64,000 nucleotides of DNA, from assembly GCF_003202205.1 (NCBI RefSeq), contig NZ_PDOG01000001.1, forward strand, positions 342,507-406,506. The letters are read 5' to 3'. The DNA comes from Halomonas sp. LBP4. GTDB taxonomy: Bacteria > Pseudomonadota > Gammaproteobacteria > Pseudomonadales > Halomonadaceae. The notes under the pieces were generated by a model. It was not told the DNA's origin. It was given only the letters and a program-made list of their open reading frames with translations, and ran no database searches. Positions 3,096 through 48,544 of the stretch are shown here, piece after piece (positions within the stretch are counted from its first letter, which is position 1; every line of letters starts with the position of its first letter). A program made the translations under genes and the position numbers.

Positions 3096-3111
3096 TGCCA
3101 ACCAAGTGAGC

Positions 3112-3210
3112 GGCGCCGGGGACAGGCCGAAGCGGAGGTCCTTTTCCAGGGATGGGAAAGGTAGTGCCCAGGGAGGGGTTCACAGCGCCTCCGCGCAGGC
3201 CTGTCGCCGG
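3112..3210 (+). repeat. Dispersed structured repeat, copy 1
   Basis: First of three related ~100 bp elements, in the convergent gap between maf and sppA. Predicted fold: outer stem 3122-3128 with 3198-3204; symmetric 3x3 internal loop; inner stem 3132-3138 with 3188-3194; hairpin 3140-3147/3154-3161 with loop AGGGAT; a 4 bp hairpin with loop AGGGAG; then the invariant single strand TCACAGCG. Stem bases differ from copies 2 and 3 but pairing is kept. The element reads on in sense from maf. Confidence 0.8.
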
Positions 3211-3246
3211 GAAAGCCGCGACTCCAGGCCCCAGGCGCTCGGTGCT

Positions 3247-21280: not shown

Positions 21281-22336
21281 ATGGCCGATCGCCTGCTTCC
21301 CGAATGGCACCCCCAGGATGCCGTGCAACTGACATGGCCCGGTCCCGACAGCGACTGGGCCCCGCTGCTCGAGCGCATCGAGGCCACCCTTGAGGCCATG
21401 GTGGTCGCCATCGCCCGCTACCAGGCCGTGCTGGTCGGCGTACCCGACGCCGCCACCCGGACCCATCTCGAGCGGCGCTTCGCCCGGCTGGGCGTGGATG
21501 CCTCCCGCCTGCACCTGCTGGTGGCCGCCGCCGACGACACCTGGGCCCGGGACCATGGCCCGATCGCCGTGGAGCGCCACGGGGCACCGCTGCTGCTCGA
21601 CTACGTCTTCACCGGCTGGGGAGGCAAATACGCGGCCGAGCGCGACAACACCCTGACGAGGCGCCTGGCCGAGGCCGGCGTCTTCGCCTGTCCGGTGGTC
21701 AGTCACGACCTGGTGCTCGAGGGCGGAGCCCTCGACACCGACGGCCAGGGCACCCTGCTGACCACCGAGGCCTGTCTGCTCAACCCCAACCGCAACCCGG
21801 GCCTCGACCGCGCGGCGATGGAAGCCCGACTGCAGGCCGACCTCGGCATCACGCGGGTGCTGTGGCTGGCCAACGGCCACCTCGAGGGCGACGATACCGA
21901 CAGCCATGTGGACACCCTGGTGCGCTTCTGTGACCCCGGCACCATCGCCTATGTGCGCTGCGACGACGAGAGCGACCCCCACTACCCGGCGCTGGCCGCC
22001 ATGGAGGCCGAGCTCCGCGCCCTGCGCCGCCTCGACGGCGAGCCCTATCGACTGGTCCCGCTGCCCTGGCCGCGCCCCTGCTTCGACCCGGTGGACGGCC
22101 ACCGGCTGCCGGCAACCTATGCCAACTTCCTGATCATCAACGGTGCCGTGCTGGTGCCGGTCTACGGCGACGCCGCCGACACCCGGGCGTTGACCGCCCT
22201 GGCCGGCGCCTTCCCCGATCGCGACATCGTGCCCATCGACTGCCTGAGCGTGATCCGCCAGCACGGCAGCCTGCACTGCCTGACCATGCAGCTGCCCCGG
22301 GGCAGCCTGGCCGTTGAGGATACGGCGGTTACCTGA
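21281..22336 (+). CDS. aguA: Agmatine deiminase
   Basis: Converts agmatine to N-carbamoylputrescine and ammonia, the second step from arginine to putrescine. 351 residues, typical length. Conserved segments are LPEWHPQDAVQLTWPGPDSDW at the start, DDTWARDHGPI, FTGWGGKY, LEGGALDTDGQGTLL and SHVDTLVRF, and the nucleophile C333 in GSLHCLTMQ near the end. The frame is open upstream, but ATG 21281 begins the conserved block; an ATG at 21254 is an alternative. aguB follows on the same strand with a structured repeat between them. Confidence 0.93.
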   Translation: MADRLLPEWHPQDAVQLTWPGPDSDWAPLLERIEATLEAMVVAIARYQAVLVGVPDAATRTHLERRFARLGVDASRLHLLVAAADDTWARDHGPIAVERHGAPLLLDYVFTGWGGKYAAERDNTLTRRLAEAGVFACPVVSHDLVLEGGALDTDGQGTLLTTEACLLNPNRNPGLDRAAMEARLQADLGITRVLWLANGHLEGDDTDSHVDTLVRFCDPGTIAYVRCDDESDPHYPALAAMEAELRALRRLDGEPYRLVPLPWPRPCFDPVDGHRLPATYANFLIINGAVLVPVYGDAADTRALTALAGAFPDRDIVPIDCLSVIRQHGSLHCLTMQLPRGSLAVEDTAVT

Positions 22337-22343
22337 AGCGAGA

Positions 22344-22442
22344 GGCGCCGGGGGCAGGTCAGAGCGGGGGTCCTTTTCCAGGGAAGGAAAAGGTAGCGTA
22401 CAGGGAAGTATTCACAGCGCCCCCGCGGAGACCTGTCGCCGG
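22344..22442 (+). repeat. Dispersed structured repeat, copy 2
   Basis: Second copy, in the 142 bp gap between aguA and aguB and so very likely transcribed within that operon. Stems: 22354-22360 with 22430-22436; 22364-22370 with 22420-22426 (7 bp, perfect); hairpin 22372-22379 with 22386-22393 (8 bp, perfect) and loop AGGGAA; then GTAC-AGGGAA-GTAT, a 4 bp hairpin replacing GCCC/GGGT of the other copies. Linkers TAGC and TCACAGCG are conserved. Confidence 0.85.
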
Positions 22443-22478
22443 ATCAGCCTCGAGAATAGACCTACGAGGAGAGTCAAC

Positions 22479-47930: not shown

Positions 47931-47985
47931 GCGCTTCTCGATCGGCAAGCTGGAGGGGGACGGACGCGACGACAGGATTCGCGAG

Positions 47986-48350
<365 letters not shown>

Positions 48351-48431
48351 CGGCAAGCATACCAGCGCCTCGCCACCCCCTCAACAACCCCGGTGCAATG
48401 GAAGCGTTGCCACTGCTGGTTGGACGCGAGA

Positions 48432-48530
48432 GGCGACGGGGGCAGGTCGTAGAGGGGGGCCTATGCCAGGGATGGCATCGGTAGCGCCCAGGGAAGGGTT
48501 CACAGCGCCCCCTCGTAGACCTGCCGCCGG
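48432..48530 (+). repeat. Dispersed structured repeat, copy 3
   Basis: Third copy, in the gap between rnpB and rsmI (both minus), with the element in plus orientation, so it is antisense to its neighbours. Stems: 48442-48448 with 48518-48524 (7 bp, perfect); 48452-48458 with 48508-48514 (7 bp, perfect); hairpin 48460-48467 with 48474-48481 (one mismatch) and loop AGGGAT; GCCC-AGGGAA-GGGT hairpin; TCACAGCG. The hairpin stem sequence differs from copies 1-2 yet still pairs. Confidence 0.85.
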
Positions 48531-48544
48531 AAAGCCTTGATCAG

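Follow-up and report, generated by a model that had tools for sequence, protein, structure and literature searches.

A dispersed Halomonadaceae repeat with a covarying fold and two predicted CsrA-type sites, an apparent branch of a wider gammaproteobacterial repeat family

Introduction

A folded element of about 100 bp occurs three times within 64,000 nt of DNA from Halomonas sp. LBP4 (the whole stretch that was analysed, hereafter the window), which raises the question of what such a repeat is, whether it works as DNA or as RNA, and which partner might recognize it. A first-pass annotation, made from the letters alone, had bounded the copies at 99 bp, had listed compensatory changes among them and had argued that the fold is either selected or copied as a fold; it knew no described name for the element. 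Here, the element is followed through its own genome, the family Halomonadaceae and the class Gammaproteobacteria. Statements attributed to cited papers refer to excerpts of these papers.

Copies of the Element in the Window and in the Genome

Alignment of the three window copies revealed one element in the same orientation and with identical spacing, and all of the compensations listed earlier are visible in it. A covariance model (R1), built from 30 copies of the own genome (G000, 4.76 Mb), matches the window at three places:

3103–3223, + strand: copy 1, whole modelled element (R1 match, 141.5 bits)
22335–22455, + strand: copy 2, whole modelled element, flanked by two co-directional genes (R1 match, 135.4 bits)
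48423–48542, + strand: copy 3, whole modelled element, situated 5' of the RNase P RNA gene (R1 match, 125.4 bits)

Covariation is also seen in an additional outer stem of 5 bp, which brings the modelled element to 121 nt. The copies delimited at 99 bp are thus real, but their fold runs past the former bounds.

In the own genome, the R1 scan gave 80 matches at E ≤ 1 among the best 150 of 6283 candidates. Fifty-two full-length copies, occurring in both orientations and all scoring at least 109.6 bits, were identified among these candidates, in line with the earlier expectation that a genome scan should give more than three. They are separated by a score gap from the next match at 81.7 bits, where partial and altered copies begin, and at least three of the weakest matches are reverse-strand shadows of strong copies. 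A BLAST search with a single copy as query found at least 40 places at E ≤ 1 (best 40 of 83 candidates). The gene-context and loop counts given below refer to the 52 copies, the nine weaker ones (<109 bits) of 61 having been left out. Some copies (L005, L006, L007, L008, L014, and L018) carry further arms, roughly CAGGGCWATCGC ... GCGATAGCCCTG, giving a longer palindrome, and the downstream flanks of L003 and L010 have a common stretch near GCGATCCCGGGAACGAAACCCTGGCACTTCGCTT, perhaps another repeat.

The + strand of each window copy folds better than 200 of 200 dinucleotide shuffles (z = -4.61, -5.19, and -5.04). Good folds were likewise obtained for the minus strands (z = -4.0 to -5.2), which a palindrome would lead one to expect. 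In the comparison of the window with Rfam, the sole match at the gathering score was the RNase P RNA (RF00010, 323.6 bits; 47984–48348, minus strand) that adjoins copy 3, so a riboswitch or another Rfam family was rejected as the identity of the element. Many low-score Rfam matches of the copies concern microRNA or lncRNA models. A T run on the 3' side of the outer stem, the sign of a terminator, was not seen by eye in the copies read.

Fold and Covariation

In copy 2, the fold is composed of the following parts:

22342–22346, + strand: additional outer stem, 5' arm, pairing with 22447–22451 (columns 8–12 with 113–117)
22348–22360, + strand: main outer stem, 5' arm, pairing with 22430–22442 (columns 14–26 with 96–108)
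22364–22370, + strand: inner stem, 5' arm, pairing with 22420–22426 (columns 30–36 with 86–92)
22372–22393, + strand: hairpin 1, 8 bp with a hexaloop (columns 38–59)
22396–22418, + strand: hairpin 2 and its 3' side, GCG-TAC-AGGGAA-GTA-TTCAC-AGC (from pair counts in the copies)
22420–22426, + strand: inner stem, 3' arm (columns 86–92)
22430–22442, + strand: main outer stem, 3' arm (columns 96–108)
22447–22451, + strand: additional outer stem, 3' arm (columns 113–117)

Across the 30 own copies, 97.5% of the 1080 pair cells hold standard pairs and 17 of the 36 pairs have changed on both sides, including five of 12 in the main outer stem and six of eight in hairpin 1. None of 500 shuffles reached the observed pairing or number of double changes, and sliding the partner by 1–3 columns lowered the pairing to 36.6–50.2%. 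The additional outer stem is paired in 95.3% of its cells in these copies, and one of its pairs occurs as C-G, A-U, and G-C. The earlier claim that covariation should hold with many copies was upheld, as both-side changes were found in all copy sets tested: at 28 of 36 pairs in 79 copies of named species (A5; 95.5% paired), at 33 of 36 in 20 divergent copies from outside the Halomonadaceae (A6; 95.5% paired), and again at 33 of 36 in 23 further copies from outside the family (A8; 93.0% paired). A5, A6, and A8 are alignments fitted to a model, with a leaning towards the fold; in each of the four sets (30, 79, 20, and 23 copies), the covariation score was unreached by 500 shuffles. When nine cores were aligned freely with MAFFT (A9), both hairpins were recovered, and 13 of the 19 pairs showed changes on both sides.

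Hairpin 2 is built from a G-C and a C-G pair at its base, a G.A, three base pairs, the hexaloop, and a 5-nt bulge. Part of the sequence TCACAGCG, previously described as invariant, is engaged in pairing. Across the 5-nt bulge, the base following AGC covaries with the one preceding GCG in relatives outside the family. Among 43 such copies, this position is C-G in 16, G-C in five, U-A in one, A-U in one, G.A in 18, G-G in one, and without a match in one. In the own genome, it is G.A in 48 of 52 copies, and the other four miss the pattern. The 3x3 internal loop is rich in the same two bases (G27 in 67, A29 in 71, G93 in 67, and A95 in 64 of the 79 copies), and we infer that these G and A bases form GA pairs.

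Paired changes might also result from mutation without selection, if template switching corrects inverted repeats by changing both arms at once. Half-changed pairs are indeed few, and in three other genomes (G359, G378, and G412; L411–L430) the copies have near-perfect outer stems of 22–39 bp that differ from copy to copy, while the core is 52 nt long in 17 of the 19 readable copies (one of the 20 loci, without a readable core, was left out). Template switching may have kept these long arms perfect. Conserved loops, linkers, and the bulge would, however, be left unexplained, one pair of hairpin 1 is unpaired in 25 of the 79 copies right beside compensated pairs, and G.U has been retained over A.C (see below). 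Template switching alone is already insufficient and, as the source of the paired changes, very improbable, though it may have a share in shaping the outer stems.

Distribution and Insertion

Within the Halomonadaceae, R1 found the element in 76 of 121 genomes and 15 of 24 genera, and genomes of the same genus differ from 0 to at least 29 copies. In an exact-pattern scan of named genomes, each of the 80 matches listed carries the name of a Halomonadaceae genus.

Four relatives possess a compact element at the locus of copy 2. Compared with the own copy, five to nine pairs have changed on both sides, zero to two on one side only, and one to five are broken; other relatives have expanded, decayed, or absent copies at this locus. 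Together with the covariation and the genome scan, the copy 2 locus bears out the earlier statement that the fold is selected or the element copied as a fold.

A second site (G000:C1:660500-660620; L262:14395-14515) carries a copy inside an ORF of the other strand, presumably a phosphoglycolate phosphatase gene, which stays open through the element for 317 codons from stop to stop. Of 16 relatives, 11 are empty at this site, with 33 nt in nine, 34 in one, and 36 in one. Three are filled, namely G126, G142, and G173 (L339), the copy of the latter being inverted and 96% identical to the own copy, and two (G149 and G163) contain remnants. The occurrence of filled and empty sites indicates that copies arise by insertion. 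A target duplication was not readable at this site, the empty counterparts being too diverged.

The first-pass annotation had pointed to the co-occurrence of a RAYT-type transposase as a lead, which did not hold up. A Y1 transposase is absent from 13 of 25 element-rich genomes of the family, its presence in the other 12 compares with five of 20 element-free genomes (p = 0.135), and none of the 23 RAYT loci examined with R1 has the element (23 of 30 loci were scanned and seven left out). Mobilization by RAYT is not supported by these genomes and loci. The sole Y1 transposase gene (RAYT) of the own genome, L031, is located between GGGGTCAGACCCC repeats. The element resembles REP/BIME sequences associated with RAYT in being a small dispersed palindrome near gene ends, with GTAG preceding hairpin 2, but differs from them in the missing RAYT link among the loci examined and in the loss of GTAG from divergent copies. 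Because GTAG is not kept in these copies, the REP reading was rejected.

Strand and Gene Context

In 124 copies, 96 pair cells contain G.U and 25 contain A.C; the count left out seven of the 52 own copies that are not 121 nt long, as well as one invariant G.U pair. RNA of the + strand is therefore favoured. The own copies are located between tandem genes in sense (22) or antisense (8), between convergent (16) or divergent genes (5), and in one case inside a gene. For the copies of named species, the corresponding numbers are 42, 12, 13, 4, and 1; seven of the 79 copies, lacking a gene on one side, were unplaced, and the copy inside a predicted gene stands outside the 42:12 count. Pooled, 64 copies are sense and 20 antisense to their tandem genes (p = 1.6e-6, with genes from a home-made finder and copies treated as independent). 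An insertion preference biased in orientation could be an alternative source of this excess.

A DNA-level MITE would offer a different account of the repeat, in which a transposase reads the hairpins as single-stranded or cruciform DNA, the loops are its recognition sites, and the likeness to CsrA sites described below is coincidental. Such an account agrees with the dispersal in both orientations, with filled and empty sites including one inverted copy, and with the folding of both strands, and the Yersinia repeat YPAL has been characterized as a mobile, MITE-like sequence showing target duplications of 3–26 bp (PMC2229807). The G.U/A.C asymmetry and the sense bias, however, point to RNA, and variation within the loops falls exactly on the N bases of the CsrA site. 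The sole Y1 transposase gene of the own genome sits among other repeats, and the transposase survey, which covers the Y1/RAYT family, found element-rich genomes without Y1 and RAYT loci without the element. We consider the DNA-level account unlikely.

Where a sense gene lies upstream (38 own copies), the element lies at a median distance of 36.5 nt behind the stop codon. This location and the sense bias would also suit a 3'-UTR hairpin that shields the mRNA from RNases or exposes it to them, as proposed for YPAL and ERIC and unrelated to CsrA. YPAL is reported to accompany upstream genes, whose stability it perhaps affects (PMC2229807). A plain shield would, however, need no set loop sequence, whereas the loops and linkers of the element are kept across families, which makes this explanation improbable, more so than the DNA-level one.

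CsrA-Type Loops

Both hairpins of the element end in a hexaloop closed by a C-G pair. According to a review (PMC7652899), RsmE recognizes an ANGGAN hexaloop, RUACARGGAUGU is the SELEX consensus of CsrA, and two CsrA sites at least 10 and at most 63 nt apart can be bridged. Each window copy contains two candidate sites:

3147–3154, + strand: copy 1, CsrA-type site 1, CAGGGATG (from the sequence)
3169–3176, + strand: copy 1, CsrA-type site 2, CAGGGAGG (from the sequence)
22379–22386, + strand: copy 2, CsrA-type site 1, CAGGGAAG (pattern CANGGANG; 49 of 52 own copies fit)
22401–22408, + strand: copy 2, CsrA-type site 2, CAGGGAAG (51 of 52 own copies fit)
48467–48474, + strand: copy 3, CsrA-type site 1, CAGGGATG (from the sequence)
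48489–48496, + strand: copy 3, CsrA-type site 2, CAGGGAAG (from the sequence)

The GGA-to-GGA distance between the two sites of one copy is 22 nt, and the element thus combines paired C-G-closed ANGGAN hexaloops within bridging distance, a feature of CsrA-binding RNA. C[ANGGAN]G is present in 49 of the 52 own copies in hairpin 1 and in 51 in hairpin 2, as compared with only 22 of 5374 other C-G-closed hexaloop hairpins (p < 1e-90); these control hairpins of at least 4 bp were taken from 53 stretches of the own genome with the element copies masked. The loop bases that vary are exactly the two N positions of the CsrA site.

The same loops are retained in the other copy sets. Among the 79 copies of named species, whose loops were read from model columns, loop 1, which lies outside the search pattern, fits in 71; the eight misses comprise seven alignment gaps and one changed base. 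A column-free hairpin finder picks shifted loops in A5 (54/71 and 70/71) and A6 (16/20 and 12/20), and its figures were set aside. In the 20 divergent copies, the sole pairs that never vary (two of 36) are the C-G pairs closing both loops. In the 23 further copies, whose stems are widely different, the pattern CANGGANG persists in 23 and 22, its N bases varying; these copies were not used to build the model but were found with a model that already favoured the loops. The exact SELEX 12-mer occurs in four of the 20 and nine of the 23, making 13 among the 43 copies from outside the family, and 25 of its 29 exact matches in all fetched sequence fall in element cores.

Given this match to a known site, the loops are best read as pointing to CsrA as a putative partner, and we infer binding from the match. 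The dispersed element is probably a MITE-like, non-coding repeat that works as RNA and that, placed in the 3' regions of mRNAs, would offer CsrA two predicted sites. Several observations nevertheless stand against this reading. The exact 12-mer is found in none of the 52 own copies, most of which match eight or nine of the 12 positions. A minority of 20 of the 84 copies between tandem genes is antisense, copy 3 is antisense to its flanking genes, and the element of one relative (G173) is inverted at the same site. Two divergent own copies (G000:C1:85851 and C33:464115) have CCATCCATGG in hairpin 1, as if flipped, with the CsrA-type site on the other strand. In addition, two element-bearing genomes, G242 (88% complete) and G181 (75% complete), show no csrA. 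G000 itself has one csrA gene. Within the class, csrA was found in 44 of 45 element-bearing genomes and 29 of 35 others (p = 0.039); once five genomes positive for a second model (R2, see below) had been moved, the numbers were 48 of 50 with the element, all of these outside the Halomonadaceae, and 25 of 30 without it (p = 0.096). This difference is not significant, and the csrA distribution therefore lends no support to the CsrA reading by itself.

Relatives Beyond the Halomonadaceae

Outside the Halomonadaceae, R1 matched 27 genomes among 369 of the class, belonging to 25 families. The second model, R2, was built from 20 divergent copies outside the family and without any Halomonadaceae copies. 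It matched 75 of 369 genomes (about a fifth) and 68 of 272 genera of gammaproteobacteria, with per-genome counts taken among the best nine candidates. Five of its 26 new loci (L396, L398, L401, L403, and L404) were left out of the further set, as their genomes or copies were already in A6.

Named relatives, which could not be known from the letters alone, do exist. The first is TwoAYGGAY (RF01731, clan CL00106), which was listed as probably an RNA, from the human gut, gammaproteobacteria, and Clostridiales (Weinberg and others, PMC2864571), and was proposed to bind CsrA (Gardner and Eldai, PMC4333381). Like the Halomonas element, it is multi-copy and has two adjacent A-N-GGA-N-loop hairpins on one closing stem, a GA-rich internal loop, and, in several loci, a GAGC linker. 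Its tandem GA in a stem (PMC4333381) is matched by the bases of the 3x3 loop. In contrast, loop position 2 of the Halomonas element is mostly G instead of Y, and its second hairpin is shorter and carries a conserved UUYAC bulge. Only 14 of the 52 own copies have Y at position 2 of loop 1, whereas ANGGAN is present in 49 and 51 of 52.

R2 bridges the two kinds, scoring 99–103 bits with the window copies and 59–71 bits with the RF01731 loci L321, L324, L330, and L325. Of 20 RF01731 loci, R1 matched two at the same place and R2 six (E ≤ 0.001), and one genome, G359, has both the element and the RF01731 kind. The RF01731 model itself has matches in 19 of 338 genomes, with up to at least eight per genome; it gave no match to G000 at E ≤ 0.001, and nothing was listed for a window copy at E ≤ 10. 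The best bridging copy, L315, reaches 36.8 of 43 bits and stays below the gathering score, and this hit is weak alone because an unrelated microRNA model scores about equally. Taken strictly, the element does not belong to TwoAYGGAY as defined by Rfam.

The second relative is YPAL/RU-2, a palindromic repeat of Yersinia some 168 bp long (PMC2759123, Table 1b; PMC2229807). It is likewise dispersed and intergenic, and its core contains CAAGGATG and CATGGATG hairpins, a GAGC linker, and TTTACGGCG, to which two CANGGANG hairpins, an AGC linker, and A-GCG correspond in the element. Comparison with the RU-2 core (sequence in PMC2759123) gave 19 invariant columns in nine sequences, and 13 of the 19 pairs in their consensus fold are doubly changed. 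YPAL/RU-2 differs in being longer, in its other outer arms, and in being known from Yersinia and Erwinia. The available excerpts of PMC2759123 and PMC2229807 do not mention CsrA in connection with it.

The third relative is Ysr224 (RF02770). Transcripts of this name are reported to be multi-copy in Y. ruckeri (PMC12112432), and one paper names both CsrA and Ysr224 (PMC9029176). The Ysr224 model matches the opposite strand of seven of 18 divergent loci, the best being L300 with 33.6 bits, and its reverse complement is, by eye, nearly the RU-2 core. Ysr224 is, however, annotated on the other strand, and every match is far under the 70-bit cut-off.

The shared core and the bridging model suggest, with good support from sequence comparison, that the element is a member of one wide family with YPAL and TwoAYGGAY. 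The best reading is that it represents the Halomonadaceae branch of a family that includes YPAL/RU-2, TwoAYGGAY and, on the other strand, Ysr224. In a literature search that left most subscription journals outside its scope, no paper was found to join YPAL with TwoAYGGAY, CsrA, or Ysr224, or TwoAYGGAY with Ysr224. A search on the sequence words of the element gave nothing related, by title, among the matches listed, and one on CsrA together with miniature inverted or dispersed intergenic repeats gave no paper on the subject, by title and abstract.

Discussion

The known pieces of the family thus appear to have been previously unconnected, with the Halomonas element as one branch of a gammaproteobacteria-wide repeat family. 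Three separate records are joined here: the mobile repeat of Yersinia, an RNA listed in Rfam without a known role, and a large repeat of the Halomonadaceae. The question of what intergenic repeats do also receives a direct test, that of CsrA binding.

In the proposed model, the element would be transcribed, usually in sense, within the 3' region of its upstream gene, as its position and orientation suggest. The long imperfect stem presents two C-G-closed ANGGAN hairpins, and one CsrA (RsmA/E) dimer is predicted to clamp both hairpins of a copy. The transcribed copies among the 52 would together constitute an mRNA-borne CsrA reservoir or sponge and may affect the stability of their host mRNAs. 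New copies come by insertion. The sponge role is put forward as a proposal. A tentative extension, which we hold to be possible though doubtful, is that a mobile repeat family spreads CsrA docking sites, so that the copies act as a distributed sponge sized by host-gene transcription and each insertion wires a gene into the CsrA network. If true, CsrA would in some genomes face not just a few sponge RNAs but docking sites dispersed at tens of places, and CLIP or CsrA titration data of such species would need re-reading.

The sponge RNAs CsrB and RsmZ, which are single sRNA genes, similarly offer several GGA hairpins to CsrA; the element differs from them in being a dispersed repeat, and its compact form has two sites. 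Expanded copies of the element gain GGA motifs in hairpin 1: at L287, L288, and L289, and at L208, L211, and L222, this hairpin is replaced by a multi-hairpin arm with extra GGA motifs.
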